Origin: Alphaproteobacteria bacterium
Lineage (GTDB): Bacteria > Pseudomonadota > Alphaproteobacteria > Puniceispirillales > Marisalimonadaceae
DNA: 38,874 bases
Reading direction: 5' to 3'
Assembly (NCBI GenBank): GCA_016777705.1
Contig: JADHQW010000002.1
Span: 1-38,874, forward strand
The position numbers were made by a program, and so were the translations under genes. The notes beneath the pieces were generated by a model. That model was not told where the DNA came from. It made no database searches and saw only the letters and a list, made by a program, of their open reading frames with translations. Positions 15,537 through 34,420 of this stretch are shown here, piece after piece (positions within the stretch are counted from its first letter, which is position 1; the number at the start of each line of letters is the position of its first letter).

Positions 15537-16853
15537 ATGAAAATCAAAATATTTAACAAAACTACGAAAGTTGCATCTGCTTCAATGCTAGTCGCTTCAT
15601 GCTTGTTAGCCGGAACTGCTTTTGCAAAAGATACAGTTAAGGTTGGTGTGGTTTCATTTTTGACTGGACCAGCTGCAGGAGTTTTTGGAGTGCCTGCAAA
15701 ACAGGGAGCTCAAATAGTTATTGACGCTATTAATAATGGTACAATGCCTGCACCTTATAATAAGCAAGGATTTGCTGGTGCCAAGATGAACCCTATTTTT
15801 AGTGATGAATCAGGTGGTGGAACTAAACAAGTTGGTCTATTTAGAGATTTTGTTGAAAAACAAAAAGTTGATGCAATGATTGGTTATATATCTTCTGGAA
15901 ACTGTATGGCTATCGGTCCAATTGCTGATGAGTTAAAAATGCTAACTGTGTTTTCAACATGTGGAACACCTAGATTATATGAAGAAAAGCTGAGGTCTCA
16001 TGTTTTTAGAACACAAGCTAATGCAGTTGGTGATAGTTTAGCCGCAGCTAGATATATTACAGACATGTACCCTAATGAAAAGAATTACACAGGCATAAAT
16101 CAAAACTATGCTTGGGGACAAGATTCTTATAAATTCTTTGAATTAGGTATGAAACAAATGTCACCAGACAGTAAAGGTTCTGATAAACCTCAATTTCCAA
16201 AACTTTTTGTTGGACAATACGGAACAGAAATTTCAGCATTATCTTTAGATAAAGCTAAAGTTGTGCATTCAAGTTTTTGGGATGGTGATATTGAGGCATT
16301 TACTCTTCAAGCAATGGTTAGAGGCTTTTTTCAGAAAAAAATCTTTGTTTCTTCTGTTGGAGGATCAGCTGTTGATGCATTAGACAAAAAATTTCCCGAT
16401 GGTATTGTAATGGGTACAAGAGGTAATGTAGGTCTACTTGCAAGAGATGATAAAAGCCCATTAAATGTTTGGTTCATAAAAGAGTATAAAAAAAGATTTA
16501 ATGCTCTACCATTAGGACCATCATATCAATATGCTAGATCAATTTTAGCTTATAAATTTGCTATGGATAAAGCTATGGCCAAGGCAGGAAGTTTTCCTAC
16601 TCAAGACCAAGTTATTGCTGCTATGAAGAACATCAAGTTCAAATCATTTACAGAAACTATTTCAATGGCAAGGGGTGGTGGTCATCAAGCTGTTCATTCA
16701 GTTGGCTATGGTCTAACTAAATACAATAAAAAAGGTAAGACACCTGGAGCTGAAAAAGTTAAGATGTATGGTCCAGAATGTATATATCCACCAGCTGGAA
16801 CAAAGTCAGAAGACTGGATAAATGCAGGAATGCCTGGAGCAAAATGTAATTAA
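15537..16853 (+). CDS. ABC importer periplasmic substrate-binding protein (LivK-like)
   Basis: 438 residues. Residues 1-30 form a Sec signal peptide (basic start, hydrophobic core, AGTAFA before KD). The mature part begins VKVGVVSFLTGPAAGVFG, as in Peripla_BP_6 proteins of the branched-chain-amino-acid/amide/aromatic-acid (HAAT) importers. IGYISSGNCMAIGPIADE and VFSTCGTPRLYE form the first-lobe ligand region. A VASC sequence at 19-22 looks like a lipobox but is followed by a hydrophobic stretch, so normal cleavage after A30 is preferred. The four downstream genes complete the importer. The ligand is unknown; the aromatic context makes an aromatic or heterocyclic carboxylate a reasonable guess. 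Confidence 0.92.
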   Translation: MKIKIFNKTTKVASASMLVASCLLAGTAFAKDTVKVGVVSFLTGPAAGVFGVPAKQGAQIVIDAINNGTMPAPYNKQGFAGAKMNPIFSDESGGGTKQVGLFRDFVEKQKVDAMIGYISSGNCMAIGPIADELKMLTVFSTCGTPRLYEEKLRSHVFRTQANAVGDSLAAARYITDMYPNEKNYTGINQNYAWGQDSYKFFELGMKQMSPDSKGSDKPQFPKLFVGQYGTEISALSLDKAKVVHSSFWDGDIEAFTLQAMVRGFFQKKIFVSSVGGSAVDALDKKFPDGIVMGTRGNVGLLARDDKSPLNVWFIKEYKKRFNALPLGPSYQYARSILAYKFAMDKAMAKAGSFPTQDQVIAAMKNIKFKSFTETISMARGGGHQAVHSVGYGLTKYNKKGKTPGAEKVKMYGPECIYPPAGTKSEDWINAGMPGAKCN

Positions 16854-16864
16854 ACTTAATATTT

Positions 16865-16897
16865 AAAAGGGGTGCCTTCAAAAGCATCCCTTTTTTA
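16865..16897 (+). terminator. Rho-independent terminator/attenuator after the binding-protein gene
   Basis: GGGGTGC (16869-16875) pairs with GCATCCC (16884-16890), 7 pairs including one G-U. The loop is 8 bases, an A run precedes the stem and T6 (16891-16896) follows. It lies between the binding protein and permease genes of one operon, a common place for a leaky terminator that yields more binding protein than membrane components. Confidence 0.8.
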
Positions 16898-16918
16898 TTG
16901 CTATTTTGGAGTATATCA

Positions 16919-17815
16919 ATGCAATTTTGGGCTACAGTTTTTTTAGACGGTCTTACTTATGCCTCTTATCTTTTTATAGTAAGTTTAGGTTTAACTATTA
17001 TATTTGGGGTAATGAAAATTTTGAACGTTGCTCATGGTAGTTTTTATGCCTGGGGCGCTTACACAGCTGCATTTGCAATAGGTATTATTTCAGACAATGA
17101 TCTGCCTGAAATTTTATTTTTACCAGCTATATTAATTTCTGCAGTTTTAGTAGGTGTAGTTTTAGGGTATATTATAGAACGTTTTATACTTCGAAAAATG
17201 TATAATCAGGACATACACCTTATAGTTTTAGCTACTTTTGGGGTATTTTTAATTTTTGAAGATCTCATTATAATTACCTTTGGTGTTGACCCTTATCTTC
17301 CTTATCAACCTGCAATGATGCTTGGCTGGATTGATATTGTTGGTTTAAATAGAGGTGTCTATCAACTCTCTTTAATTCTTCTTGCTACAATTGTTGCTTT
17401 TGGTTGCTGGTATGGCCTTACCAAAACTAAGTGGGGTAAGCTCCTTCAATCGGTAATTTATGACAGAGAAATAAGTGAAGCTATGGGCATAAACGTTACT
17501 AAAGTTTATGTTGTAACATTTATCGGAGGTGCCATTTTAGGAGCACTAGGAGGTGCATATGTTGCTCCTACTACATCTGTATCTCCAGGTTTTGCTATAG
17601 ACCTTGTGGTTTTAAGCTTTGCTGTTGTGGTTATTGGTGGAATGGGTTCAATTCCTGGTGCTCTTATTGGTTCTTTAATAGTAGGGTTATTAAGAGCATT
17701 TGCAGTTCATCAAGCTCCAATATTAGAATTGTTTGTTGTTTTTGCCGTTATGGCAATCGTTTTAATTATTCGTCCTGAGGGCTTATTTGCTCCTCCTAAA
17801 GCAAGGAAAATTTAA
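16919..17815 (+). CDS. livH: ABC importer permease, LivH type
   Basis: 298 residues from ATG 16919. The frame is open to a TTG at 16898, but that codon touches the terminator T run, while GGAG (16908-16911) is correctly placed for 16919. It is a multi-spanning protein with SLGLTIIFGVMKILNVAHGS near the N terminus, FAVVVIGGMGSIPGALIGS (the cytoplasmic coupling region of LivH/LivM proteins) and a C-terminal IRPEGLFAPPKARKI. It forms half of the inner-membrane channel with LivM. The stop overlaps the livM start by one base (TAATG). The symbol reflects family; leucine itself need not be the substrate. Confidence 0.93.
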   Translation: MQFWATVFLDGLTYASYLFIVSLGLTIIFGVMKILNVAHGSFYAWGAYTAAFAIGIISDNDLPEILFLPAILISAVLVGVVLGYIIERFILRKMYNQDIHLIVLATFGVFLIFEDLIIITFGVDPYLPYQPAMMLGWIDIVGLNRGVYQLSLILLATIVAFGCWYGLTKTKWGKLLQSVIYDREISEAMGINVTKVYVVTFIGGAILGALGGAYVAPTTSVSPGFAIDLVVLSFAVVVIGGMGSIPGALIGSLIVGLLRAFAVHQAPILELFVVFAVMAIVLIIRPEGLFAPPKARKI

Positions 17816-18777
17816 TGTTTACTGGTATTTTCAAAGACACAAGCGTAAGAGTTTTGATCGTATTTATGATAAGCTTGTGCGTTATTTCATCTTTTATTTT
17901 ACCTGATTGGATGCAAAATAACTTTATGTATGGCTTGTCTAGAGGCTTAGCTATTTTAGGTCTTATGTTACTATGGCGAACAAACCTAGTGTCTTTCGGA
18001 CATGCATTATATTATGGTTTTGGAGCATATGCTGTTGCCTTATGTCAAAAATATTTTGGTATAACTGATATCTTGTTAAGGTTTACAATAGCAGTTGTTG
18101 CAGCAGGATTATTAGGTTTTTGTCTTGGGTTTATTCTCAGAAAATACAGAGAAATATTTTTTGCAATGTTATCGCTTGCTTTTTCTATGGTATTATATGG
18201 ATTGTTGGCTAAAGCCGAGTTCCTAGGATCAACTGATGGAATGTCAATTTCTCCGTCTACGCTTTTTGGATTAGAGCTTACAAGACAATATTTATTCTTC
18301 CTTATAACATTTTTTGTTATTTGTGCTGCTGTTTCAATACAAGCTTATCTTAGATCAACACTTGGACACTTAACTACAGCAATTCAAGATAATGAAATAA
18401 GAGTAGAGTTTCTTGGTTTCTCTGTACAAAAAGCAATACATATAAAATATGTTATTTCAGCTTGTTTAGCAGGAGGTGCTGGAGGGCTTATGGCTGCAAG
18501 CCTTGGTCAAGTTGATCCAGATTCAATGGTGAATTGGAATGTATCTGGAGAGCTTGTATTTATAACAATAATGTCTGGTTGGGGAAATATTTTAGCACCT
18601 TTTATTGGAGCGATAATTTTTGAATTCATAAGAACATACGCTTTTGAATGGGCACCGCAAGCTTGGGCAGCAATCGTTGGTGGAACATTACTTGCAATAA
18701 TTTTCTTTTTCCCAGGTGGTATATGGTCAATAATTGAAAAAGTTTTTAACTATGGAAAGAAAAAAGATGTCAAGTAA
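17815..18777 (+). CDS. livM: ABC importer permease, LivM type
   Basis: 320 residues with about eight to ten hydrophobic segments. Family motifs are LGLMLLWRTNLVSFGHALYY near the N terminus, YREIFFAMLSLAFSMVLYGL in the middle, AIQDNEIRVEFLGF (the EAA-like coupling loop) and SGWGNILAPFIGA. The C terminus is basic (YGKKKDVK). It pairs with LivH in the inner membrane and contacts LivG/LivF. ATG overlaps the livH stop by one base, and the livG start lies 11 bases before its own stop, so the genes are translationally coupled. Confidence 0.93.
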   Translation: MFTGIFKDTSVRVLIVFMISLCVISSFILPDWMQNNFMYGLSRGLAILGLMLLWRTNLVSFGHALYYGFGAYAVALCQKYFGITDILLRFTIAVVAAGLLGFCLGFILRKYREIFFAMLSLAFSMVLYGLLAKAEFLGSTDGMSISPSTLFGLELTRQYLFFLITFFVICAAVSIQAYLRSTLGHLTTAIQDNEIRVEFLGFSVQKAIHIKYVISACLAGGAGGLMAASLGQVDPDSMVNWNVSGELVFITIMSGWGNILAPFIGAIIFEFIRTYAFEWAPQAWAAIVGGTLLAIIFFFPGGIWSIIEKVFNYGKKKDVK

Positions 18778-19516
18778 TATAGTTTTAAAAGCATCTGAAT
18801 TAAATAAATCTTTTTCAGGTATTGTAGCGGCTAAGGATATTAATGTTTCAATAAATCAAGGAGAAATTATTGGTATAATTGGAGCAAATGGAGCTGGCAA
18901 AACTGTTTTTGTAAATATGATTACAGGTTATTTAAAACCTACAAGTGGTAAAATAGAATTTATGGGATCTGATATTACTGGAATTGAACCAAGAAAAGCA
19001 ACCCATATTGGCTTATGTAGATCGTTTCAAATTAGCCAAGTTTTTATGACAATGACAGTTAAACAAAACCTTATGATAGCAATGTCACTGGCTAAAAAAA
19101 GTGGTAAGACATTATTGGACCCCATAGAAGATGAGTCTATTTCAAAAGAATGCGACACAATACTGAAATTGTACAAAATTTTAGATCAAAAGGACAATAT
19201 AGTTAGCACCCTATCTCAAGGAATAAGAAAACTTCTAGACATTGCTATGGCTGTGGTTGGAAACCCTAAGGTAATATTACTTGACGAACCAACTTCAGGC
19301 GTTTCTGTTGAAGAAAAGTTTGGCATTATGGATATAGTTATTGCCGCATTAAAACAAACAGAAACTTCAGTATTATTTGTTGAACATGATATGGAAATAG
19401 TTGAAAGATACGTTGACCGTGTCATAGCTTTCTATCAAGGAGAAATTATATGTGATGCTCCACCCAAAAAAGCTTTATCAGATAAAAAAGTTATTGAATA
19501 TGTTTTAGGGCATTAA
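18767..19516 (+). CDS. livG: ABC importer ATPase, LivG type
   Basis: 249 residues from ATG 18767, preceded by GGAAAG; the frame extends to TTG 18734 and passes ATG 18752, but those lack a ribosome binding site. Walker A GANGAGKT is at 39-46, the Q-loop region at SFQISQVF, and Walker B VILLDEP at 169-175 with the H-switch in EHDMEIVERYVDRV. The signature motif reads LSQGIRK (149-155) instead of the common LSxGxQ/R form, a modest deviation. It drives transport with LivF. It overlaps livM by 11 bases. Confidence 0.93.
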   Translation: MSSNIVLKASELNKSFSGIVAAKDINVSINQGEIIGIIGANGAGKTVFVNMITGYLKPTSGKIEFMGSDITGIEPRKATHIGLCRSFQISQVFMTMTVKQNLMIAMSLAKKSGKTLLDPIEDESISKECDTILKLYKILDQKDNIVSTLSQGIRKLLDIAMAVVGNPKVILLDEPTSGVSVEEKFGIMDIVIAALKQTETSVLFVEHDMEIVERYVDRVIAFYQGEIICDAPPKKALSDKKVIEYVLGH

Positions 19517-19541
19517 ACAAATATGTTATTAAGGTTTAATT

Positions 19542-20180
19542 ATGTTAAGATTAGATAAAATAAATGTAAATATCGGATTAATTGAGATCCTAAAAGACGT
19601 TTCTTTAGATTTAAAGAAAGGTCAAATGGTTGGTCTAATTGGCAGGAATGGAGCAGGAAAAACAACATTATTGAGGGCTATAATGGGAATTTTGCCCACT
19701 ATTTCTGGTGAATTATCATTTGAAGATCATGATCTAATTAAAATGCCATCACAAAAAAGAGCCTATTTATCAATTGGCTATATGCCTGAAGATAGAAAAT
19801 TAATACCATCTATGTCTGCTGAAGAAAATATTCTTACTCCAGTTTGGGCTACTAATATAAATGACTGGAAACAAAGGTTGGATTGGATTTACAAAATTAT
19901 TCCGGAAGCTTTAGATTTGAAAGACAGACCTTCTACTAGTTTATCAGGAGGACAGCAAAAGCTTATAGCATTATCCAGAGCCCTTATGGTTGGAAGTAAA
20001 CTTTTACTTCTAGATGAACCGTCAGAAGGAATCGCCCCTGCTCTTACTAAAAGAATTATAGATATTTTGAATAATCTAAAAAAAGAAGGGGTTACAACTC
20101 TAATTGCAGAAAGTAATGCTGGTCATTATCAAGGCATGCTAGACAAATCTTTTGTAATAGAGCGTGGACAAATCAAGTAA
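19542..20180 (+). CDS. livF: ABC importer ATPase, LivF type
   Basis: 212 residues, somewhat shorter than the usual ~235. Walker A GRNGAGKT is at 34-41, GYMPEDRKLIPSMSAEENI follows at about 79-97 as in LivF proteins, the signature LSGGQQKLIALSRAL begins at 134, and Walker B LLLLDEP is at 154-160 followed by SEGIAP. The C-terminal region ends soon after FVIERGQIK, so the regulatory tail is missing or very short. Last gene of the importer operon, 25 bases after livG, with AAGG before the ATG. Confidence 0.93.
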   Translation: MLRLDKINVNIGLIEILKDVSLDLKKGQMVGLIGRNGAGKTTLLRAIMGILPTISGELSFEDHDLIKMPSQKRAYLSIGYMPEDRKLIPSMSAEENILTPVWATNINDWKQRLDWIYKIIPEALDLKDRPSTSLSGGQQKLIALSRALMVGSKLLLLDEPSEGIAPALTKRIIDILNNLKKEGVTTLIAESNAGHYQGMLDKSFVIERGQIK

Positions 20181-20248: not shown

Positions 20249-20758
20249 ATGCCTTTGTATAAATCTGATTCAAAAATTAAAATTCAATTTAAATTGAATA
20301 ATAAAGATATAAATACGGAAACAGACAATAGAACTCTTCTAAGCGATTTTTTAAGACATACAATTGGCGAAACAGGCACTCATGTTGGATGTGAACACGG
20401 AATTTGTGGAGCCTGTACGATTTTACTAAACAATGAACCAATAAGATCCTGCTTGATGTTTGCATCACAATTAAATGGCAAAGAATTGGTAACTATTGAA
20501 GGGTTAGTAAATGATAAAAACTTTGATAATTTAAGAAAAGCTTTTAAAAAAAATCATGCTTTACAGTGTGGTTATTGTACGCCAGGTTTTTTAGTAACAA
20601 TTATAGCATTTTTAAACACAAAGCCTAAAAATGTTGATGTTAACAAAATTAGAGAAATGCTAAGCGGTAACATATGCAGGTGTACGGGTTATACAGGTAT
20701 AATAAATGCAGTAAAAGAAGTCATTGGAATAAATGAAATTGAACAAAAAAATGTTTGA
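20249..20758 (+). CDS. Molybdenum hydroxylase 2Fe-2S subunit (CoxS-like)
   Basis: 169 residues, normal for a separate CoxS/XdhC-type small subunit. The plant-ferredoxin-like domain has C48, C53, C56 and C68; the helical domain has C107, C110, C143 and C145 (QCGYCTPGF and NICRCTGY). It transfers electrons from the Moco site to the FAD subunit. Its partner subunits are encoded about 4.2 kb downstream (24985-28802), with four other genes between, which is unusual. The ligase gene begins inside its last 26 bases. It is not BoxA, which is a larger ferredoxin/flavin reductase. Confidence 0.93.
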   Translation: MPLYKSDSKIKIQFKLNNKDINTETDNRTLLSDFLRHTIGETGTHVGCEHGICGACTILLNNEPIRSCLMFASQLNGKELVTIEGLVNDKNFDNLRKAFKKNHALQCGYCTPGFLVTIIAFLNTKPKNVDVNKIREMLSGNICRCTGYTGIINAVKEVIGINEIEQKNV

Positions 20759-22274
20759 TCTTGGAACAACAATTTTAGCTTCAAAAGAAAAAAATCCAGA
20801 TGCAATAGCAATAGCAGGTCTAGATTACAAATACACCTACTATGAATGGTTTAAAAAAATAGATACTCTATCAGGATCTTTAAAATATTTAGGTTTAAAG
20901 AAACAAGAAAAAGTTATTACTTTACTCCAAAATAATTTTGAAGCCTCTACAATACATTGGGCATGTCAATTAAATAATCTAATCGTTGTGCCTTTAAATT
21001 GGAGAATGAAGCCTGAGGAGATTGATTTTTGTATTTCTAATTCAGAAGCTAGTTGCATATTCTTTCAAAAAGAAAGTATGGATGGAGTAGAGCTGTCGCT
21101 AGAGGCAAAGAAAATTAAACAAATCTTTGTTGGTGGCAATAATAATAAAATACTAAATATAAGCGAACTTATTAAAAATGGTAATCCTGGAAACCACCCT
21201 GAAGGAAAAAGTGATAGTTATTCAATAATTTTATACACATCAGGCACTACTGGAAAGCCTAAAGGTGTGCCAAGAACACATTTAGCTGAAAGGTCAGCTG
21301 CACTAGCTCATGTCGCTCAAAATATGTATAAAAATGGAGAAATCACTCTTGGTGTTATGCCTTTATATCATACAATGGGAATTAGATCATTAATTTCAAT
21401 GTCACTAATTAATGGAACATTTATAACACAACCTAAGTTCTCATCCCTAGAAGCTATAAAATTAATTAATAAGTTTAAAATTACTTCTTTATATTTGGTA
21501 CCTACTCTATTTCATGAATTAATCGAAGATAAGAGTTTTACAAATAATAAAGTTAAATCATGCAAGAAATTAGGATTTGCTGGCGCGCCTATGAACAATG
21601 GTCTCATAAAAAAAGTTATGAAAGCATTTAAACCTATACAACTTGTTAATCATTATGGATCGTCTGAAGTCTATACTTTTACTGTTGATCAGAATGCACA
21701 TAAAAAACCAGGATCAGCAGGCAAAGCTGGAATAAATCAGCGTATTCGAGTTGTAGAAATTGGATCTAAAAACCCTCAAAAAATTGTTAAAAAAAATATT
21801 GAAGGAGAGATAATTGCTTCTCTTAAATCTGAAGAATCTTTTTCAGGATATTTAAAAAGACCTGATGCTAATAAAAAGTCTATAATCAAGAACTGGTATT
21901 TTACAAATGACATTGGTTACATAGATAACAATGGTGATCTTTTCGTAACTGGCAGAGTTGACGACATGATTATAACTGGAGGTGAAAACGTATCACCCAT
22001 TGAAATAGAAAATTTATTGTCGTTAAATAAAAATGTTCTTGAAGTCGTTGTAGTTGGACTTCCTGACGAAAAATGGGGGCAAAGAATTTGTGGTTTTATT
22101 AAACGAGATGGTAATATTGAATTTGGTAATCTAGATAAACATTGTAAAGAATCTGGTATGGCCAACTTTAAAAGACCAAAAGAGTATATTTTTGTAAAAG
22201 AGATACCTAAATCTCCTACAGGAAAAATTTTAAGAAGAAAATTACTTGCAGGTGAGTACGATTTAGATAGATGA
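20733..22274 (+). CDS. AMP-forming acyl/aryl-CoA ligase
   Basis: 513 residues of the ANL superfamily. The P-loop YTSGTTGKPKG is at 168-178. NHYGSSEVYTF is the A5 region, WYFTNDIGYIDNNGDLFVTG the A7 region, GRVDDMIITGGENVSP the hinge, and K498 in SPTGKILRRKL the catalytic lysine. It converts a carboxylate to its CoA thioester. Start ATG 20733 follows GGAAT and overlaps the Fe-S gene by 26 bases; ATG 20751 is an alternative. Its place between the Fe-S subunit and the HpaB-like/ECH genes suggests that the ring or side-chain chemistry of this cluster works on CoA esters. The substrate cannot be read from sequence; it is distinct from the benzoate-CoA ligase at 28897. Confidence 0.9.
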   Translation: MKLNKKMFDLGTTILASKEKNPDAIAIAGLDYKYTYYEWFKKIDTLSGSLKYLGLKKQEKVITLLQNNFEASTIHWACQLNNLIVVPLNWRMKPEEIDFCISNSEASCIFFQKESMDGVELSLEAKKIKQIFVGGNNNKILNISELIKNGNPGNHPEGKSDSYSIILYTSGTTGKPKGVPRTHLAERSAALAHVAQNMYKNGEITLGVMPLYHTMGIRSLISMSLINGTFITQPKFSSLEAIKLINKFKITSLYLVPTLFHELIEDKSFTNNKVKSCKKLGFAGAPMNNGLIKKVMKAFKPIQLVNHYGSSEVYTFTVDQNAHKKPGSAGKAGINQRIRVVEIGSKNPQKIVKKNIEGEIIASLKSEESFSGYLKRPDANKKSIIKNWYFTNDIGYIDNNGDLFVTGRVDDMIITGGENVSPIEIENLLSLNKNVLEVVVVGLPDEKWGQRICGFIKRDGNIEFGNLDKHCKESGMANFKRPKEYIFVKEIPKSPTGKILRRKLLAGEYDLDR

Positions 22275-22300
22275 ATTATTAATAGAGAAGAGGAAGAAAT

Positions 22301-22690
22301 ATGTTAAAAAGAAAACCGCATCTTGAATTTACTAAAATTTCTTCAAACGAAAATTGGCATACGCCTCAAGGTTATCCAACTGGAATAAAACAACATATTT
22401 TAGCTTCTGACATTGATGAAGTTAATAAGACAGGAAGTAGATCAAGATTACTTAAATTTGAACCTGGTGTATTTACAACTGAAAAATTTATTCATGACCA
22501 TTGGGAAGAAGTTTATTTGGTTAGTGGGGATTTAATAGTAGGAAACGATGAAGATGGAAATGGTGGAGAACAATTTGAAGGATCAACATATGCATGTAGA
22601 CCTCCTGGCGTTTATCATGGTCCTTTTAAGTCTGATAAAGGCTGTGTCCTTTTTGAATTACATTACTATAAAAATGAAACTGAATTTTAA
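22301..22690 (+). CDS. Small cupin-domain protein
   Basis: 129 residues, a single cupin barrel. Metal ligands are probably H65, H67 and E69/E70 (FIHDHWEEVYLVSG) and H106 (RPPGVYHGPF). Strong AGAGGAAG ribosome binding site. Single-domain cupins of this ChrR/anti-ECF or dioxygenase-like type can be isomerases, decarboxylases, small dioxygenases or sensors; the sequence does not decide. It lies between a CoA ligase and an HpaB-family monooxygenase in one operon, so a catabolic step such as oxidation or isomerisation of an intermediate is plausible, but this is inference. Confidence 0.82.
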   Translation: MLKRKPHLEFTKISSNENWHTPQGYPTGIKQHILASDIDEVNKTGSRSRLLKFEPGVFTTEKFIHDHWEEVYLVSGDLIVGNDEDGNGGEQFEGSTYACRPPGVYHGPFKSDKGCVLFELHYYKNETEF

Positions 22691-22706
22691 TTTTTAAGGA
22701 TTTAAG

Positions 22707-24164
22707 ATGATTAAAACAGGCAAGGAACACTTAAGTCAATTAAGAGATGGAAGAGTAGTTTATATTGGTGATGAAAAAATTGATGACGTTACAACTCATC
22801 CAGCCTTTGAGAAAGCCGCGCAAAAAGTAGCTGAATTGTATGATATTAAACATCAAGAAATTTATAAAGACGTTTTGTCATATGAAGAAAATGGCGAACT
22901 ATGCTCTACTTGGTTTTTACAAGCAAAAAACAAAAGTGATTTAAGGAAAAGATCTAAAGCGCATAAAGTTATTGCTGACCAAACATCTGGAATGATGGGA
23001 CGTTCTATGGATCATGTAGCTAGTTTTGTAACGGGTATGTCTACAAATCCTGATATTTTTGATAGTGGTAAATATAAATTTAAAGAAAATCTCTTAAATT
23101 ATTATAAATACATGAAAAAAAATGATGTTTTTGCATCTTATGCTGTTGTTCCTCCTCAAGCGGCAAGAAACCCTGAATTTTATCAAAAGCAAAATCTTCC
23201 TATTCCAACTCTATCTGTTGTAGAGGAAAATAAAAAAGGCGTCATTATTTCAGGGATGAAGATGCTTGCTACAAGCGCTGTATTTGCCAATGAAATATGG
23301 ATTGGCAACCTTGTTCCCCTAGCCCCAGACCAGATCAAACAAGCCATAACATGTGCAATACCTTGTAATATTGAGGGATTGTCTCTCTGGATGCGTCAAC
23401 CACTATCAACACATTATGACAATCAGTTTGACTCTCCTTTATCATGGAATATGGATGAAACAGATGTACTTGTAATGTGTGATAAAGTATTTGTTCCTTG
23501 GGACAGAATATTCGTGATGGACGATGCTATTTTAGCTAGGGAGATATACATAAAAACACCTGCCCATTGTTATGGAAATCATCAAGCTAATGTAAGATAT
23601 TGGTCCAAAATGGAATTAATAACAGGACTATGTAATAAAATAGCTAAAGCCACCGGTGCAGACCAAATTCCAGCAGTAAGAGAAACACTTGGGAAAATGT
23701 CATCATTAGAAGCTAATTTATCTGGAATGATACATGGACAAATAGAAGCGGCTGAAACTTGGCCAAATAATCATATGACATTCAATAGAAGAATGATGTA
23801 CGCAGCATTAAATTGGTGCACCGAAAATTACACACCAATTGTTGACGAATTAAGAACACTTTGTGGTGGAGGTGTTTTTCAAATGCCTGCAAGTATTAAT
23901 GTTATGAAAAATGAAAAACTAAAGAAAGATTTTGAAACTTATTTTCAAACCCCACAAATGGACGCAAAATCAAGAATGAAGCTATTTAAATTAGCCTGGG
24001 ATGTAGTAGGCTCTGAATTTGCTGGAAGACAACAGCAATACGAAAAATTCTATGCAGGAGCTTCTTTTATTATTAAAAACCACAGTTACCGTGAAACTCC
24101 TTGGGATTATTTTGATGGTGTGGTGGATAGTTTAATGGATAAATATGATCTACCAGAAAATTAA
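22707..24164 (+). CDS. HpaB-family FADH2-dependent monooxygenase (4-hydroxyphenylacetate 3-hydroxylase-like)
   Basis: 485 residues with the family N terminus (LRDGRVVYIGDEKIDDVTTHPAF, residues 12-34), the acyl-CoA-dehydrogenase-like core and the C-terminal GSEFAGRQQQYEKFYAG. Characterised members use reduced FAD from a separate reductase to hydroxylate phenols. In HpaB the substrate hydroxyl is bound by an Arg-Tyr-His set; by motif alignment these are here R99, H103 (GRSMDHV, Tyr expected) and Y145 (SYAVVPP, His expected), so Tyr and His appear exchanged. The C-terminal LCGGGVFQMPAS is present. No HpaC-type flavin reductase is in the window. The substrate is probably not 4-hydroxyphenylacetate; the neighbouring CoA ligase suggests an aromatic acid or its CoA ester. 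AAGGA precedes the ATG. Confidence 0.87.
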   Translation: MIKTGKEHLSQLRDGRVVYIGDEKIDDVTTHPAFEKAAQKVAELYDIKHQEIYKDVLSYEENGELCSTWFLQAKNKSDLRKRSKAHKVIADQTSGMMGRSMDHVASFVTGMSTNPDIFDSGKYKFKENLLNYYKYMKKNDVFASYAVVPPQAARNPEFYQKQNLPIPTLSVVEENKKGVIISGMKMLATSAVFANEIWIGNLVPLAPDQIKQAITCAIPCNIEGLSLWMRQPLSTHYDNQFDSPLSWNMDETDVLVMCDKVFVPWDRIFVMDDAILAREIYIKTPAHCYGNHQANVRYWSKMELITGLCNKIAKATGADQIPAVRETLGKMSSLEANLSGMIHGQIEAAETWPNNHMTFNRRMMYAALNWCTENYTPIVDELRTLCGGGVFQMPASINVMKNEKLKKDFETYFQTPQMDAKSRMKLFKLAWDVVGSEFAGRQQQYEKFYAGASFIIKNHSYRETPWDYFDGVVDSLMDKYDLPEN

Positions 24165-24188
24165 TTTTAAGAAATATAGGAGTTTTAA

Positions 24189-24974
24189 TTGGCAATAGTT
24201 ATTAAAGAATTCGATGGGTTTAGAGTTGAAGTAAATAATGAAGATAATAGAGGTGATATTATTTTATCAAGACCCCCATTAAATGTTATTCAATATTCGC
24301 AAAGAATTCAAATGGCTGAAGCTATGAAAGATTTAGATAAAAATGAAAATGTAAGAGTTATTATTTTACGAGCAGATGGAAAAAACTTCTCATCAGGAGG
24401 AAATATTGAAGGTTTTTTAAAAGAGACACCAGAAACACTAACTATGCTTGCTCAAAACGTAATGACGCCTGAAAAAATTAGAAAACCAGTTATCGCTGCA
24501 ATTCAAGGTTACTGTTTTGGAGTTGGCTTAGAATTTTCTTTAGCTTGTGATTTCAGGATTGTGACTAAGTGTGCACAGCTATCCCTTCCTGAAATGAAAA
24601 TAGGAATGATACCAGGATCAGGTGGATCAGTTCGACTAGCTAGGATGATCGGGTTATCTAGGGTTAAAGATATGATAATGAGAGGTAAAAGAATTTCTGG
24701 AGAAGAATCTTATAATTATGGTCTAGCATCTGAAGTGGTTGAAATTAACGAACTTGAGAGTGCGACTAGTAATCTTGTTAAAGAACTTTGTTTAGTATCA
24801 CCTTTAGCACAAAGAGCCATTAAAACTGTTCTTAATGCATCTCAAGATGCGCCTTTACACGTTGCAATTGAGTTAGAAGGTGAAACATATGGCAGGCTTA
24901 GAAGTTCTAGTGATTTTAAAGAAGGTGTTCAAAGCTTTGTAGAAAAAAGAAAACCTGTTTATACAGGAAAATAG
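24189..24974 (+). CDS. Enoyl-CoA hydratase/isomerase (crotonase) family protein
   Basis: 261 residues. Start is TTG 24189, supported by AGGAG seven bases upstream. Crotonase motifs are NFSSGGNIEGF (67-77, oxyanion hole), AIQGYCFGVGLEFSLACDF (104-122) and LSLPEMKIGMIPGSGG (131-146). Both typical catalytic acids are present as E115 and E135, so true hydratase activity is possible. In this operon, with a CoA ligase and two ring-oxidising enzymes, it may hydrate a dienoyl-CoA or act in ring cleavage; related dienoyl-CoA hydratases and ring hydrolases share this fold. The exact reaction is open. Confidence 0.9.
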   Translation: MAIVIKEFDGFRVEVNNEDNRGDIILSRPPLNVIQYSQRIQMAEAMKDLDKNENVRVIILRADGKNFSSGGNIEGFLKETPETLTMLAQNVMTPEKIRKPVIAAIQGYCFGVGLEFSLACDFRIVTKCAQLSLPEMKIGMIPGSGGSVRLARMIGLSRVKDMIMRGKRISGEESYNYGLASEVVEINELESATSNLVKELCLVSPLAQRAIKTVLNASQDAPLHVAIELEGETYGRLRSSSDFKEGVQSFVEKRKPVYTGK

Positions 24975-24984
24975 AAGGTAAAAA

Positions 24985-27972
24985 TTGTTAATGGAGAAAA
25001 TTCTCAACAAAGTTAATAATTGTAAAATTGGATCATCAATTGAAAGATCAGAAGATGATACATTAATTATAGGTAAAGGAATTTATGGCGACGACAAAGG
25101 TAATCCACCTGGAACTTTACACGTTGCAGTATTAAGATCTCAATATGCAGCAGGAAAAATTCTTAACTTAGACACAACAATGGCTTCTTGTATTCCTGGA
25201 GTGCATTCAATAATTGATGGTAAATCATTTTCAAACCTTTCAAAACCTCTATTGTCCGTTTTAAGAATTGATATCGAGGTTTGGCCTTGCGCAATTGAAT
25301 ATGTTAGGTATGTAGGCGAACCTATAGCTCTAGTGTTAGCTGAAAACAGATATATTGCTGAAGACGCAATTGATAATATTAAGGTAACATATCAAGAATA
25401 TAATCCTATTATTAAGACAGAAGATGCTACGTTGGATTCTTCACCAAAAGTTCATAAAAAAACTAAAACTAACGTGGTCAGTGACAGAAAATTTTCATAT
25501 GGAAATCCAAAAGAAGCTTTTAAAAAAGCTGATGAAATAATTAAGTTGAAAATTGAATATCCTAGAAATAGTTGTACTCCACTTGAAGGTTTTATAGTTC
25601 AAAGCAATTATAATTCTTCTGAAAAAAGTTATACCGTTCACTCAAATTTTCAAGGACCATTTAGCCTTCATTCTGTGATTTCGAGATCTTTAAATGTTAA
25701 TGAAAATAAATTAAGGTTAATATCAAACCAAGATTCTGGAGGTAGTTTTGGTATTAAACAAGCTATACTTCCAATGATAGTATTAACCTGTCTAGCTTCA
25801 AGAATTTCAGGAAAAAACATAAAGTGGGTTGAAGATAGAATTGAACATTTAACCGCAGCATCATCAGCCACTAATAGAGTGACTACTATCAAAGCTGCTG
25901 TAAGAAGAAATGGTGAAATTCTAGCGCTAGATTATGATCAAATTGATGATGTTGGTGCTTATTTGAGAGCACCAGAACCAGCTTCATTATATAGAATGCA
26001 TGGAAACTTATCTGGAGCTTATTTGGTTAAAAATATATCTTGTAGAAACAGAGTGGTTCTAACTAATAAAACACCAACTGGTTTAAATCGAGGTTTTGGC
26101 GGTCCTCAGCATTATTATGCTCTTGAGAGATTGGTTCATAAAATTGCTGTTAATCTAAAATTAGATCACCTAGCAGTTATCAAATTAAATTTAGTAAAAG
26201 ATAAAGATTTTCCCTATCAATCTGCTTCTGGAGCACTTCTAGATTCTGGTCAATATAAAAAATTGATGGATAAAGTTTTAAAATCCAATGAATTTTCTGA
26301 TATGAAGTTGCGACAAAACTTAGCACAAAAAAAAGGTAACTTGTATGGAATTGGTTACGCTGCAATAGTAGAACCATCCGTATCAAATATGGGTTACATA
26401 ACTACGGCAGTACCATTTAAAGAAAGAGAAAAATCAGGACATAAAGGAGGAGCCATTGCAAGTGCGACTGTATCAATAGGACCTACTGGTGGAATTTATG
26501 TAACATGTGACAGCGTTCCACAAGGTCAAGGCCATAAAACTGTACTTGCACAAATTGTTGCCGATATTTTTGGATTAAGCTTTGAAAATGTTTTTGTTAA
26601 TGGTGAATTGGATACTCAAAAAGATGCGTGGTCCATTGCTGCAGGTAATTATTCAAGTCGTTTTGCAGGAGCAGTCGCAGGTACGACATCTCTTGCGGCA
26701 AAAAAACTAAAATTAAGAATATTAAAAATTGCTTCTACAAAACTAAATTGTAAAGCTGAAAATATAATATTTGAAAATAATTTCGTTATAGATAAAAATA
26801 ATTTTGATAATAAAATATCTTTTAATCGATTAGTTGGATTAGCACATTGGTCTCCAGGAGAACTTCCAGAAAACTCTGAGAATGGTCTAAGAGAAACTGT
26901 TCATTGGTCACCACCACAATTAGCTCCGCCTAATAACAAAGATCAAATTAATGGTTCACTTGCCTATGGTTTTGTTTTTGATATTTGTGGTTTAGAAATA
27001 AATCCTAAAACCGGTCAGACAAGGGTTGATAAGTATATTACAGGACATGATGCTGGAAATATTTTAAATCCTTTATTAGCCAATGGACAAATTTATGGTG
27101 CTTTCGCTCATGGTTTAGGAGCTGCATTGTTTGAAGAATTTAAATATACTGATGATGGCTCTTTTTTAGCTGGAACTTTTGCAGATTACCTTCTTCCATC
27201 AACTTATGAGGTGCCAACACCCTCTATAATTCATATTGAAACGCCTAGCCCTTTTACTCCCTTGGGCGCAAAAGGCTTAGGTGAAGGTAATTGTATGTCA
27301 ACTCCAGTAGCTATAGCAAATGCAGCATGCGATGCTTTAAAAATCGATAATGTTACACTTCCCCTAACACACTCTAAAGTTCATTCCTACATCACTTCTA
27401 ATTTAAAAGAACAACCAAGATCTAAATTAAATTCAAATAAAAACTTTATTAAGCCAAATGATAAAAATAATATTATTACTGGCCAAGGAAATAATTTATT
27501 ATACAAAAAACCGAACCAAATCTGGGATTTTTTATTGAATCCTGACAATCTATCAAAAATATTACCAGTTACTGAAAAGATTTTATTAATAAAAGATAAC
27601 CACTATGAAGGTAAAATTAAAATTAAATTTGGTCCGATTACTGGTGAATATGAATTTTCTGTACTATTAAGCAAATTAAATAAACCAAAAAATTTAAAAC
27701 TATCTGGAAAAGCAAGTGGCCCATTAGGAATAGCTAGTGGTGAAGGTTTGATAACATTGTCACCTATGAATAAAGAGAAAACAGAATTAACTTATCAATA
27801 TGATGTGCAAGTTTCTGGTAAAATTGCAGCTATAGGTGGTCGTTTCTTAAAAACTGCTTCAAATATAATTATAAATCAATTTTTTGATCGTTTAGCTCAA
27901 GAAATATCACCTGAACATAGAAAAAATAATTTTTGGAATTTGATATTAAAATGTTTGAAAGTCATTAAATGA
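24985..27972 (+). CDS. Molybdenum hydroxylase Moco subunit with fused CoxG (SRPBCC) domain
   Basis: 995 residues. The Moco domains occupy about 1-800: YVGEPIALVLAENRY, QDSGGSFGIKQA, LNRGFGGPQHYY, SVPQGQGHKT, and GAKGLGEGNC with catalytic glutamate E767. After a Lys/Asn-rich linker, residues about 830-975 form a CoxG-like SRPBCC domain (LLYKKPNQIWDFLLNPDNLS through SGEGLITLSP). CoxG normally is a separate protein that tethers CO dehydrogenase to the membrane. The CO-dehydrogenase Cys loop (AYRCSFR) is replaced by LNRGFGG, so this is not a CODH. TTG 24985 is well spaced from GAAGG; ATG 24991 is an alternative. It overlaps the FAD subunit gene by 4 bases (ATGA). Substrate is unknown, possibly an aryl or heteroaryl CoA ester or acid. 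Confidence 0.92.
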   Translation: MLMEKILNKVNNCKIGSSIERSEDDTLIIGKGIYGDDKGNPPGTLHVAVLRSQYAAGKILNLDTTMASCIPGVHSIIDGKSFSNLSKPLLSVLRIDIEVWPCAIEYVRYVGEPIALVLAENRYIAEDAIDNIKVTYQEYNPIIKTEDATLDSSPKVHKKTKTNVVSDRKFSYGNPKEAFKKADEIIKLKIEYPRNSCTPLEGFIVQSNYNSSEKSYTVHSNFQGPFSLHSVISRSLNVNENKLRLISNQDSGGSFGIKQAILPMIVLTCLASRISGKNIKWVEDRIEHLTAASSATNRVTTIKAAVRRNGEILALDYDQIDDVGAYLRAPEPASLYRMHGNLSGAYLVKNISCRNRVVLTNKTPTGLNRGFGGPQHYYALERLVHKIAVNLKLDHLAVIKLNLVKDKDFPYQSASGALLDSGQYKKLMDKVLKSNEFSDMKLRQNLAQKKGNLYGIGYAAIVEPSVSNMGYITTAVPFKEREKSGHKGGAIASATVSIGPTGGIYVTCDSVPQGQGHKTVLAQIVADIFGLSFENVFVNGELDTQKDAWSIAAGNYSSRFAGAVAGTTSLAAKKLKLRILKIASTKLNCKAENIIFENNFVIDKNNFDNKISFNRLVGLAHWSPGELPENSENGLRETVHWSPPQLAPPNNKDQINGSLAYGFVFDICGLEINPKTGQTRVDKYITGHDAGNILNPLLANGQIYGAFAHGLGAALFEEFKYTDDGSFLAGTFADYLLPSTYEVPTPSIIHIETPSPFTPLGAKGLGEGNCMSTPVAIANAACDALKIDNVTLPLTHSKVHSYITSNLKEQPRSKLNSNKNFIKPNDKNNIITGQGNNLLYKKPNQIWDFLLNPDNLSKILPVTEKILLIKDNHYEGKIKIKFGPITGEYEFSVLLSKLNKPKNLKLSGKASGPLGIASGEGLITLSPMNKEKTELTYQYDVQVSGKIAAIGGRFLKTASNIIINQFFDRLAQEISPEHRKNNFWNLILKCLKVIK

Positions 27973-28802
27973 AACCTGCATCTTTTGACTTATTTCAACC
28001 CAAAAATTGGCAAGAAGTTCTTGAAGGATTGCAAGAGTATGGTGAGGATGCACAAATATTAGCTGGTGGGCAATCTTTAATTGCAATGTTAAATATGAGA
28101 ATTGCAAAGCCAAAAGTTTTGATTGATATCAATTCCATAGAAGATGATGTTCCGTTAATCGATAATAAGACTAACATTGAAATCAGCGCATTATTTAGAC
28201 AATTACAACTTGAAAATAGAATAAAAACAAAAGATGACTTACCATTAATAAGCGAATGTCTTCCTTATATTGGACACCAACAACATAGAGCCCGTGGAAC
28301 AATCATAGGTTCTTTATGTCATGCAGACCCTAGCTCTGAGTTACCTTTATGTTTTATAGCTCTAAAAGGACAATTAAAGTTGAATAGTTTATCTACACAA
28401 AGAATTATTAATGCAGAAGATTTTTTTCTTGGTCCACTATTAAATTCTAGAAATCATAATGAGGTAATTAAGTCGGTAATAATACCTAAAGCAAAAGAAC
28501 AAACTGGTTACGCTTTTAAAGAAATTTCTGAAAAACACGGTGACTTTGCACTTGCTTCATTTGCTGCAATTGCAAGTCATAATAATGTTAGGTTTGTTGT
28601 AGGTGGTGTTAGCGATAAAATTACAGCAAGAGATTGGATTACAGATGACTTAAATGAAATTGAATCTCTTGTAAATGACTTTGCATGGGATTTAGATACT
28701 GCGACAGATCAATACACAACTGACAGGTATAAAAGAGATATTATTAGGAACTTAGGCTTTGAAACCATTAAAACAGCAATAAGTAGAAAGAATGCAAGAT
28801 AA
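27969..28802 (+). CDS. Molybdenum hydroxylase FAD-binding subunit (CoxM-like)
   Basis: 277 residues. FAD motifs are LAGGQSLIAMLNMR (31-44) and RARGTIIGSLCHADPSSELP (107-126), closer to CoxM than the paralogue at 8139. It completes the three-part enzyme with the Fe-S subunit at 20249 and the Moco subunit just upstream, with which it overlaps by 4 bases. No cysteine-rich [4Fe-4S] insertion is seen, arguing against 4-hydroxybenzoyl-CoA reductase. Last gene of this operon; 94 bases follow before the benzoate-CoA ligase. Confidence 0.93.
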   Translation: MKPASFDLFQPKNWQEVLEGLQEYGEDAQILAGGQSLIAMLNMRIAKPKVLIDINSIEDDVPLIDNKTNIEISALFRQLQLENRIKTKDDLPLISECLPYIGHQQHRARGTIIGSLCHADPSSELPLCFIALKGQLKLNSLSTQRIINAEDFFLGPLLNSRNHNEVIKSVIIPKAKEQTGYAFKEISEKHGDFALASFAAIASHNNVRFVVGGVSDKITARDWITDDLNEIESLVNDFAWDLDTATDQYTTDRYKRDIIRNLGFETIKTAISRKNAR

Positions 28803-28896: not shown

Positions 28897-30453
28897 ATGT
28901 TTAAAGATAAAGTAACAAAACAAAATAATGCTGCTTATTATTTTATTGATAGACATTTAAACTCAACAATTGAAAACAAAAAGGCATTTGTTGAAGCAAT
29001 TCCAGATGGTAGAAGTATTTCATACAAGGATCTATCTATAGAAACAAATAAAATTATTGATCTACTTGCAAAATATAATATTCGAAGAGAAGAAAGAGTA
29101 TTAATGTTGGTATTAGACCAAATCGAGTTTCCAGTAATTTTTTGGGGATGCCTCAAAGCTGGAGTTATTCCTGTCCCTGTAAATACTTTATTGTCAAAAG
29201 ATATTGTTAATTCTATTTTAAATGATTGCAGAGCTAAAACTATTTTTATTTCAGAGGAAATTCAAAATTTAATTCCTAATCCGTCTGAAATTGATAATCC
29301 AATTGAGAATATATTTCTCATTAGTAAAGATAATAATATTAAAGAATTTAAACATTTTAAATCTGAGATGGATTTATGTGTTCCACAAGAACCACTTATA
29401 GTTTTAAAAGACGAGCCTGCCTTTTGGTTGTACTCCTCAGGCTCTACAGGAGAACCAAAAGGAGTTATTCATGTACATGGGAGTTTATTAGAAACTTATG
29501 AAACATACGCCTCAAAGATTTTAAATATAAAAGAAACAGATATAGTTTTTTCTGTAGCTAAACTTTTTTTTGCATATGGTTTAGGAAATGCGATGACTTT
29601 CCCTTTGGGAGTTGGAGCAACTACTGCCCTTTATCCATTAAGACCTACACCTGATAGTGTTAAGGAAGTAATGAAATTAATAAAACCTTCAATTTTATTT
29701 GCTGTGCCAACTATTTATGCAGCAATGATAGCTAGTTTAAAAAAAGAAGCTAATGTAAAATTTACAAATTTGAGACTTTGCGTGTCTGCAGGAGAGGCTC
29801 TTCCTTTTCAAATTGGAACTGATTGGAAAAAAATAACTGGAGTAGATATTTTAGATGGTGTTGGATCGACTGAAATGCTTCATATTTTTCTTTCAAACAA
29901 ACCAGATGATATAATATATGGCACTTCAGGTAGTGCTGTTCCTGGATATGAATTAAGATTGGTTAATGAAAGTGGAACAGAGGTGTCTATTGGAGAAATT
30001 GGAGAATTGCTTGTTAAAGGTAAATCATCTGCAACGTGTTATTGGAATAAACTAATAAAATCAAGAAATACCTTTGAAGGAGAATGGACAAGAACTGGAG
30101 ATAAATATGAAAAATTAGAAGACGAAAAGTATATTTATAGTGGTAGAACTGACGACATGTTTAAAGTCAGTGGAATATGGATATCACCATTTGAAGTTGA
30201 ACAAGCATTAATATCTCATGAAATTGTCCTAGAAGCAGCCGTCGTTGCAAAACAAGATAAAGAAGGTTTAGATAAACCATGTGCATTTGTCATTTTAAAT
30301 GAAAATGTCCCTAAATCAGGTAAAGAGGATATCTTAAAAGAGCATGTAAAAAACAAAATAGGTAAATGGAAATATCCTAGATGGATAAACTTTATTAACG
30401 AACTTCCTAAAACAGCTACAGGAAAAGTACAAAGGTTTAAGTTAAGAAAGTGA
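28897..30453 (+). CDS. Benzoate-CoA ligase family protein
   Basis: 518 residues of the ANL superfamily. The P-loop SSGSTGEPKG is at 180-189. AKLFFAYGLGNAMTFPLGVG (221-240) is the hallmark of the benzoate-CoA ligase (BclA/BadA) branch. GVGSTEMLHIFLSN is the A5 region, SGRTDDMFKVSGIWISPFEV the hinge, and K510 in TATGKVQRFKL the catalytic lysine. It makes benzoyl-CoA (or a ring-substituted one) from benzoate, ATP and CoA, the entry to the BoxB/BoxC reactions encoded two and three genes downstream. GGGAG lies upstream of the ATG. The stop overlaps the GTG start of the hydrolase by 4 bases. Confidence 0.93.
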   Translation: MFKDKVTKQNNAAYYFIDRHLNSTIENKKAFVEAIPDGRSISYKDLSIETNKIIDLLAKYNIRREERVLMLVLDQIEFPVIFWGCLKAGVIPVPVNTLLSKDIVNSILNDCRAKTIFISEEIQNLIPNPSEIDNPIENIFLISKDNNIKEFKHFKSEMDLCVPQEPLIVLKDEPAFWLYSSGSTGEPKGVIHVHGSLLETYETYASKILNIKETDIVFSVAKLFFAYGLGNAMTFPLGVGATTALYPLRPTPDSVKEVMKLIKPSILFAVPTIYAAMIASLKKEANVKFTNLRLCVSAGEALPFQIGTDWKKITGVDILDGVGSTEMLHIFLSNKPDDIIYGTSGSAVPGYELRLVNESGTEVSIGEIGELLVKGKSSATCYWNKLIKSRNTFEGEWTRTGDKYEKLEDEKYIYSGRTDDMFKVSGIWISPFEVEQALISHEIVLEAAVVAKQDKEGLDKPCAFVILNENVPKSGKEDILKEHVKNKIGKWKYPRWINFINELPKTATGKVQRFKLRK

Positions 30454-31241
30454 AACAAAGTAGTAATACAGAAATAAAATTTTTAGAAATTGATAGTAAA
30501 ATAATTGAATATCAAGTTTTTGGTGATATATCCAATGACATTCCTGTATTAATTTTATTGCATGAAGGTCTTGGCTCAATTGCTATGTGGAGAAAAATAC
30601 CAGAATTAATTCATCTTAAAACAAAACTAAATGTTTTTGTATATTCAAGGTTTGGTTATGGAAAATCATCAACTATTAAATTACCTAGACCTACAAATTA
30701 TATGAGTATTGAAGCAGAGGAATATTTACCTAAAATCATTAAAAGTTTATCAATTAAAAATTATTTTTTAATTGGACATAGTGATGGAGGCACAATAGCC
30801 AGTATAGGGAGTAAATCAAAAAACATAGAACAATTGTTAGGCACAATTTTGATTGCCCCTCACTTTTTTGTGGAACAAGAAAGCATTAATGCCATTGAAG
30901 ATATTTCTTATCAATATAAATATAAAAACTTAAAATCAAAATTAGAACGTTTTCATAATGATGTTGATAATGCTTTTTGGGGTTGGAGTAATGTCTGGTT
31001 AAGCCCCGATTTCAAAAATTGGAACATTTTAAAGTATTTACCTCAAATAAAAACTCCAATTTTGGCTTTGCAGGGAACAAACGATCCTTATGGAACGATA
31101 AACCAAATAAATATTTTAGAACAAAAAGTTCGTGGTCCGTTTGATAAAGTTGTAATTAAAGACTGTGGACATAACCCCTTTACTGAATATACAGATAAAA
31201 CAATCGAGCATATTAATGCTTTTATTAAAAAAATTATATAG
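30450..31241 (+). CDS. Alpha/beta hydrolase of the benzoyl-CoA cluster
   Basis: 263 residues. Start GTG 30450, in a GTGA overlap with the ligase stop. Catalytic triad by motif: S111 in GHSDGG, D212 in GTNDPYG, H241 in DCGHNPFTE; oxyanion region LLHEGLGSIAMW (36-47). Hydrolases of this type are often seen in aerobic benzoyl-CoA (box) clusters, where a thioesterase or lactonase/protective role has been suggested. The exact substrate is unknown. Coupling to the ligase argues for a role on benzoyl-CoA pathway intermediates. Confidence 0.88.
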   Translation: MKQSSNTEIKFLEIDSKIIEYQVFGDISNDIPVLILLHEGLGSIAMWRKIPELIHLKTKLNVFVYSRFGYGKSSTIKLPRPTNYMSIEAEEYLPKIIKSLSIKNYFLIGHSDGGTIASIGSKSKNIEQLLGTILIAPHFFVEQESINAIEDISYQYKYKNLKSKLERFHNDVDNAFWGWSNVWLSPDFKNWNILKYLPQIKTPILALQGTNDPYGTINQINILEQKVRGPFDKVVIKDCGHNPFTEYTDKTIEHINAFIKKII

Positions 31242-31298
31242 TCTTTAATATTAAAATACTTATACAATTATATTATTAAAAATAAACTTGAGGTAAGA

Positions 31299-32960: not shown

Positions 32961-32971
32961 GCGAGGTAAAA

Positions 32972-34420
32972 ATGTTAAGTAGTCAAGTTGAATATGATAC
33001 AATAATTCCTAACAATGTTAGTTTATCTTCAGATAGAAGAGTTCTTAAAGCTCTTGAAAAATGGCACCCTGGATATATTGACTGGTGGAAAGATCTTGGT
33101 CCAGTAGGATTTCAAGATATGTTAGTTTATTTAAGAACAGCAATTAATGTTGATAAAGATGGTTGGGCTACTTTTGATTACGTTAAAATGCCAGAATATA
33201 GATGGGGTATTTTACTAGCTCCTCAAAAAGAAGGAAGAACAATTCCATTTGGTGATCATATCGGCGAACCTGTGTGGCAAGAAGTTCCTGGTGAATACAG
33301 ATCGATGCTAAGAAGATTAATTGTTATCCAAGGTGATACCGAACCTGCTTCAATTGAACAACAGCGATTTTTAGGAAGTACAGCACCATCCTTATATGAT
33401 ATGAGAAATTTATTTCAAGTAAATGTTGAGGAGGGAAGACATTTATGGGCAATGGTATATCTACTTCAAAAATATTTTGGATCTGATGGTAGAGAAGAAG
33501 CAAATGAGCTACTTAAGCGACAGTCTGGATCTGAAGATGCACCAAGAATGCTAGGAGCTTTTAATGAATCAACACCAGATTGGCTTTCATTTTTTATGTT
33601 TACAGCATTTACAGATAGAGACGGTAAAATGCAATTAGAAGCATTAGCTCAATCTGGGTTCGACCCTCTGTCAAGAACTTGTAGATTCATGCTTACAGAA
33701 GAAGCCCATCATATGTTTGTTGGAGAAAATGGTGTAAGAAGAGTCATAAAGAAAACTTGTGAAATGATGAATAAAGCTGGTATTTCAGATCCATTTGATA
33801 TTGATAAGATAAGACAGTTAGGCGTAATTGATCTACCCACCATCCAAAAAAAAATTAATCTTCATTACTCTTTATCACTAGATCTATTTGGATCAGAAAT
33901 TTCTACAAATGCTGCTAACACATATACAGCTGGTGTAAAAGGAAGATTTTGGGAAACAAAAATTAAAGATGATCATATTCTTAAAAATGATACCTATCCG
34001 ATTTTAGAATTTGCTAATCAAAAAATAATTAACAAACAAGCTCCTGCCCTTTTATCACTAAATATGAGATTAAGAGACGACTATACTAAAGATACTGCAG
34101 TGAGTATAAAAAGATGGAATAGGACTATTGAAGAGGCAAAGATAAATTTTAACATTAAATTACCTTTTGAGGGTTTTAATAGAAAAATTGGTACTTTTAT
34201 GAGCGCTCATATATCGCCATCAGGCGATGTTTTGACAGAGGAAAGTTGGAACAAAGAAAGTAATAAATATTTACCAACAAAAGATGATAATTTATTCATT
34301 GAGTCACTTATGACACCAGTATCTGAACCTGGAGTTTATGCAGATTGGATAGCGGCTCCAGATCTGGGAATTGACAATAAACCCGGTGACTTCGAATATG
34401 TGAAAATCCATGACGCTTGA
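32972..34420 (+). CDS. boxB: Benzoyl-CoA 2,3-epoxidase oxygenase subunit BoxB
   Basis: 482 residues (family ~475). It is a di-iron protein. Likely ligands are E124, E154 and H157 (NVEEGRH), D215, and E243/E244 with H246/H247 (LTEEAHH). It inserts one oxygen atom of O2 across C2-C3 of benzoyl-CoA, needing electrons from BoxA. AGCGAGG precedes the ATG; directly after boxC. No boxA follows, as the next gene is convergent and unrelated. The presence of an O2-requiring epoxidase shows aerobic aromatic catabolism. Confidence 0.96.
   Translation: MLSSQVEYDTIIPNNVSLSSDRRVLKALEKWHPGYIDWWKDLGPVGFQDMLVYLRTAINVDKDGWATFDYVKMPEYRWGILLAPQKEGRTIPFGDHIGEPVWQEVPGEYRSMLRRLIVIQGDTEPASIEQQRFLGSTAPSLYDMRNLFQVNVEEGRHLWAMVYLLQKYFGSDGREEANELLKRQSGSEDAPRMLGAFNESTPDWLSFFMFTAFTDRDGKMQLEALAQSGFDPLSRTCRFMLTEEAHHMFVGENGVRRVIKKTCEMMNKAGISDPFDIDKIRQLGVIDLPTIQKKINLHYSLSLDLFGSEISTNAANTYTAGVKGRFWETKIKDDHILKNDTYPILEFANQKIINKQAPALLSLNMRLRDDYTKDTAVSIKRWNRTIEEAKINFNIKLPFEGFNRKIGTFMSAHISPSGDVLTEESWNKESNKYLPTKDDNLFIESLMTPVSEPGVYADWIAAPDLGIDNKPGDFEYVKIHDA

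Follow-up and report, generated by a model that had tools for sequence, protein, structure and literature searches.

The seven-gene block at positions 20249-28802 of the window is probably a permuted hmf operon, hmfC-hmfD-(cupin-hpaB-like)-hmfE-hmfA-hmfB, whose most likely substrate is 2-furoate or a closely related five-ring heteroaromatic acid, and which would carry an imported cupin-HpaB module. The window is the whole stretch of 38,874 nucleotides that was analysed. It belongs to a 1.73-Mb draft genome (160 contigs, 79% complete) of a marine SAR116 host, and its best matches in a genome scan were SAR116 single-cell genomes and MAGs. Our explanation is based on homology, trees, gene order and kept active-site motifs, from which we infer the substrate, the order of the reactions and what the cupin and HpaB-like proteins do.

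The seven genes encode, in order, the Fe-S subunit, CoA ligase, cupin, HpaB-like protein, crotonase, Moco subunit and FAD subunit, and all of them are located on the plus strand (Table 1). The intergenic gaps are 10-26 bp, with overlaps of 26 bp between the Fe-S and ligase genes and 4 bp between the Moco and FAD genes, and no credible plus-strand terminator was found between the seven genes. The initial annotation had described these genes with their positions, short gaps and overlaps correctly, and every open reading frame was found where it had been placed. Its family names also agree with Pfam and NCBIfam; the CoxG domain of the Moco subunit, which it did not mention, is an addition.

Table 1. 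Genes of the block and the transporter directly upstream of it (positions in the window)
Feature	Position	Strand	Evidence
[2Fe-2S] subunit, HmfC-type, 169 aa (S)	20249..20758	+	PF01799/PF00111; motifs CEHGICGAC..C, CGYC..CRC
AMP-forming acyl-CoA ligase, HmfD-type (2-furoyl-CoA synthetase-like; LIG)	20733..22274	+	PF00501/PF13193
Small single-domain cupin (CUP)	22301..22690	+	Pfam score 26.3, just below cut-off 27
HpaB-superfamily flavin oxygenase, catalytic Tyr/His exchanged (HPAB)	22707..24164	+	PF11794/PF03241
Crotonase, HmfE-type (2-oxoglutaroyl-CoA hydrolase-like; ECH)	24189..24974	+	Tree with HmfE; signatures
Molybdopterin subunit with C-terminal CoxG domain, HmfA-type, 995 aa (L)	24985..27972	+	PF01315, PF02738, PF20256, PF06240
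FAD subunit, HmfB-type, 277 aa (M)	27969..28802	+	PF00941
Branched-chain-amino-acid-type ABC transporter, directly upstream of block	15537..20180	+	PF13458 (binding protein)

It is reported that HmfD is a 2-furoyl-CoA synthetase and HmfABC the Mo-dependent 2-furoyl-CoA dehydrogenase, that HmfE is a proposed 2-oxoglutaroyl-CoA hydrolase, and that benE adjoins hmf in one Pseudomonas (PMC6678421; PMC12064950). The five core proteins of the block share 40-54% identity with proteins of contiguous clusters that other proteobacteria carry on plasmids and chromids. These reference clusters were called hmf from their layout and the literature, and the comparison was made without the proteins of C. basilensis HMF14. 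Against the cluster of Burkholderia aenigmatica (L100), which reads UbiD-UbiX-HmfA-B-C-D-E-GMC oxidoreductase-MFS, the identity was 50.5% for HmfA (over 964 residues), 40% for HmfB, 47% for HmfC, 51% for HmfD and 54% for HmfE. In Cupriavidus necator NH9 (L103) these genes are all present, with the blocks ordered differently. Clusters of hmf layout also occur in Alphaproteobacteria (L101, L102, L105), and an ABC transporter or BenE comes after ABCDE in Azospirillum, Bosea and Paracoccus.

The trees agree with this assignment (SH-aLRT supports are from quick trees). The SAR116 ligases are sister to nine HmfD sequences in a 15-row clade with SH-aLRT 99. The crotonase groups with HmfE (SH-aLRT 87), carries the FSSGG and FGVG signatures and keeps both glutamates. 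The Fe-S and FAD subunits group with HmfC and HmfB (SH-aLRT 83-91), the FAD subunit with the alphaproteobacterial HmfB. The active-site elements of Mo hydroxylases are kept, namely the [2Fe-2S] cysteines, the GFGG and QGQG hairpins and the catalytic Glu in GLGE (764). The Moco subunit falls inside an HmfA superclade (SH-aLRT 100), where the SAR116 position is a fork without resolution. This superclade also contains HmfA-like enzymes located next to other ligases (L122-L127, L133), and these two observations suggest that the substrate may have shifted.

The initial annotation knew of no described pathway with such a set of genes. For five of the seven genes this does not hold, as the ligase, the three Mo-dehydrogenase subunits and the crotonase make up the HmfABCDE set. 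A furoate-type core is already known chemistry, and the cupin and HpaB-like genes alone are unexplained. CoA activation followed by Mo-dependent hydroxylation, which the annotation had put at the start of its pathway, is supported. Its linear scheme, with flavin monooxygenation after the Mo hydroxylation, is unsupported: in hmf the crotonase step follows Mo hydroxylation and the opening of the ring, and the HpaB/cupin pair is a module that travels separately. In the pathway we propose, the HmfD-type ligase would form the aryl-CoA, the three-subunit Mo enzyme would hydroxylate C5 with water as the source, the hydroxy-furoyl-CoA would tautomerise and open, and the crotonase-fold enzyme would lead to 2-oxoglutarate. 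The cupin and HpaB-like protein would be an imported O2-dependent upper module, and our leading guess is that they act on a precursor to supply the carboxylic acid on which HmfD works.

The block resembles hmfABCDE of Cupriavidus basilensis HMF14, Pseudomonas and Burkholderiaceae in its five families, including the CoxG-fused Moco subunit, and in the adjacency of hmfC and hmfD. It differs in its order (C-D-x-y-E-A-B), in the two additional genes that separate D from E, in its marine SAR116 host and in having no gene for HmfF/HmfG (UbiD/UbiX) or HmfH within the window, so that HMF itself is not indicated. The contiguous A-B-C-D-E order is seen in L100, L102, L103, L105, L135 and L136 and is not found in the block; this order is typical, not essential, for hmf function. 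The splitting of the Mo enzyme is a real arrangement, a cyclic permutation from ABCDE to CD-(cupin-hpaB)-EAB. The Fe-S gene keeps its ancestral neighbour, since the HmfC-HmfD adjacency is present in the window with an overlap. The split could go back to a rotation of the ABCDE order of the ancestor; a tandem duplication in which each gene then lost one of its copies would be one way to produce it. No repeat scar accounting for the rearrangement was found within the block, just short imperfect repeats.

A genome scan with the HpaB-like protein gave 50 loci. The gene order of the block recurs at seven SAR116 loci, several of them from single-cell genomes. The full collinear S-LIG-CUP-HPAB-ECH-L-M block is present in L025, L026, L041, L027 and L042, and L070 and L072 harbor partial blocks at contig ends. 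The initial annotation had considered that a gene order not conserved in relatives, or a separate Fe-S gene beside the Moco/FAD pair, would indicate chance rearrangement. The order is kept across the SAR116 loci and the Moco/FAD pair has no second Fe-S gene next to it, so the arrangement is not due to chance; the seven-gene arrangement is real, and the shared order bears out the view of the block as one unit. The dN/dS ratio was far below 1 for all seven genes, with dS saturated.

The real oddity of this locus is the pair of genes, cupin and HpaB-like, that stands between hmfD and hmfE. In the cupin, H65, E69, E70 and H106 were invariant among 38 homologues and H67 was near-invariant. Its structure model (pLDDT 92.4) matches cupin folds. 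The Fe-dependent acetylacetone dioxygenase Dke1 (3bal) was the top Foldseek match (E 1.4e-07), yet it shares ~20% identity with the window cupin and many other cupins tie with it on fold. VIA-align placed 3bal at rank 31, tied, with many cupins sharing Z 10-12, and the sole profile match among PDB sequences was again 3bal, at a non-significant E of 0.7. Since a large range of different cupins tie as its closest folds, no reaction is assignable to this protein. 2,4'-Dihydroxyacetophenone dioxygenase was also considered and rejected, the PDB giving no sequence match.

The HpaB-like protein shares superfamily, length and the catalytic Arg with HpaB (4-hydroxyphenylacetate 3-monooxygenase), and FADH2-dependent C4a-hydroperoxyflavin chemistry is likely. 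It scored below the HpaB equivalog cut-offs (TIGR02309, 312.9 vs 480.2 bits; TIGR02310, 210.8 vs 885.2 bits), and it also differs from HpaB in having no adjoining HpaC and in the cupin that stands beside most homologues of its clade. The block holds no flavin reductase gene; candidates are present elsewhere in the genomes. It was documented that the catalytic triad of true HpaB is Arg100-Tyr104-His142 (PMC10537072). The window protein and all the cupin-linked homologues that were aligned (35% to 94% identity) keep the Arg, but Tyr104 is replaced by His and His142 by Tyr. Because His142 is the phenol-deprotonating base in the proposed HpaB mechanism, this exchange argues for an altered chemistry or geometry. 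It is no proof that the enzyme is inactive; the protein is probably not a standard phenol hydroxylase. The SAR116 block thus displays a cupin-linked HpaB clade with an exchanged catalytic pair, and the usual annotation of this clade as 4-hydroxyphenylacetate hydroxylase is likely wrong for that reason. A pyrrole-2-carboxylate monooxygenase was rejected as a candidate, as the literature yielded just an old citation.

Outside SAR116, the cupin-HpaB pair was found in Alpha- and Betaproteobacteria, usually with DUF2848, a family with weak similarity to FAA hydrolases, and without hmf neighbours. A MarR regulator is another neighbour, and some genomes have indolepyruvate-oxidoreductase-like genes and an AMP ligase there. 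A more distant HpaB subfamily has a flavin reductase, an amidase and an ABC transporter alongside. In L033, L035, L039 and L040, cupin-HpaB is followed by genes that by their look resemble indolepyruvate-ferredoxin oxidoreductase subunits, and L035 has an AMP ligase there too; these neighbours are a possible clue to the substrate of the module. DUF2848 was also considered as a missing partner in SAR116 and rejected, with 0 matches in 41 genomes, though the control also matched nowhere. The literature search on DUF2848 and on clusters of HpaB, cupin and amidase yielded nothing relevant. An HmfA-like gene is present elsewhere in 11 of ~29 non-SAR116 genomes with the module, which would speak for a link between the module and hmf; the count is weak, since these genomes are large and mutually related.

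An alternative reading is a diverged hmf-type operon with a changed substrate: a CoA-linked or substituted heteroaromatic would be the target of the cupin and the HpaB-like protein within the pathway, and the seven genes would form one new pathway instead of furoate degradation with an add-on. In every SAR116 locus the two genes stand between D and E and never at the edge. Within the genus, HPAB and the CoxG-fused Moco gene co-occur perfectly: among 37 genomes screened for the two genes, each was present in an identical set of 5. Across SAR116 genera, HPAB and CUP are also more strongly conserved than the other five, with 75-78% in L027 where these have 55-67%. Moreover, hmf-like genes lie ~5 kb from a cupin gene in Caballeronia NK8 (L104), and in the marine MAG L123 they are near a cupin gene and DUF2848, without HPAB. 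On the other hand, outside SAR116 the pair usually stands beside DUF2848, MarR, amidase or 2-oxoacid oxidoreductase genes and not with hmf, and LIG and ECH are still close to HmfD and HmfE, so we regard one integrated new pathway as unlikely. The occurrence of cupin-HpaB elsewhere without hmf neighbours, together with the joint inheritance of the whole block in SAR116, was counted in favour of a permuted hmf operon with an imported module. Our tentative suggestion, for which we claim less confidence than for the hmf core, is that the cupin and the His/Tyr-exchanged HpaB constitute an undescribed alpha- and betaproteobacterial oxygenase module, which would hydroxylate a non-classical substrate and pass it to the metal cupin. 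In SAR116 it would be built into a furoyl-CoA-type pathway, so that the seven genes would together break down a heteroaromatic compound whose degradation is not yet known. If the permuted hmf reading is true, furoate-type heteroaromatic catabolism is placed in the abundant, streamlined marine SAR116; a full-text search of the open literature found no paper on SAR116 and furoate.

Directly after the block, genes at 28897-34420 encode BclA, an alpha/beta hydrolase, BoxC and BoxB, with BclA, BoxC and BoxB exceeding their curated cut-offs. No BoxA above cut-off was found in the draft genome or six relatives. It could be supposed that the operon feeds these benzoyl-CoA (box) genes, the cupin/HpaB pair and the ligase making benzoate or benzoyl-CoA from an aryl precursor, and a betaproteobacterial MAG (L055) indeed has BoxC, BclA, cupin and HpaB together. 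However, the ligase is HmfD-like and not BclA-like, and L027 and L042 keep the intact seven-gene block without box genes downstream. These findings weaken the supposition to the point of being very improbable; the aerobic benzoyl-CoA pathway genes adjoin the block but are a separate unit, not always beside it.

A Mo enzyme of the 4-hydroxybenzoyl-CoA reductase or carbon-monoxide-dehydrogenase type with unrelated neighbours, to which the weak profile similarity to TIGR03193/03194 and TIGR02416 might point, is refuted on present sequence evidence: the profiles score far under their curated cut-offs (TIGR03195, 32 vs 404.55 bits; TIGR02416, 375 vs 991 bits), the 277-residue FAD subunit has only three Cys (97, 117, 128) and no room for the [4Fe-4S] insert of the reductase, and the Moco loop reads NRGFGGPQ in place of the AYxCSFR/CSFR active-site loop of aerobic CO dehydrogenase (form I).

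The ABC transporter upstream of the block, also kept in L025 and L026, probably takes up aromatic acids. The idea that it is an orthologue of the transporter beside the Bosea hmf genes was dropped, the identity being only 23-34%. Between the ABC transporter and hmfC, L041 (731-7500), L027 (786-7500) and L042 (780-7500) carry an extra cassette that is missing from the window, consisting of FAD, Fe-S, ~250-aa protein, Moco, SDR and AMP ligase genes.

Further upstream in the window, the genes at 8139-14002 encode a Mo hydroxylase (FAD subunit and fused Fe-S/Moco subunit), a 6-hydroxynicotinate reductase-like protein and a UPF0280-type protein (PRK04334 model), and they probably serve nicotinate catabolism. 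The reductase-like protein (474 aa) shares 65% identity with annotated 6-hydroxynicotinate reductases, and neither Pfam nor NCBIfam gave a match for it; a ring-opening amidohydrolase had been considered for its gene (11714-13138) and was dropped in view of this likeness. Together with the box genes to the right of the block, these genes give the region the look of an island devoted to aromatic monocarboxylic acids, which is consistent with furoate. A HyuA/HyuB (hydantoinase/oxoprolinase) pair on the minus strand at 4177-7997 adjoins the nicotinate-type genes.
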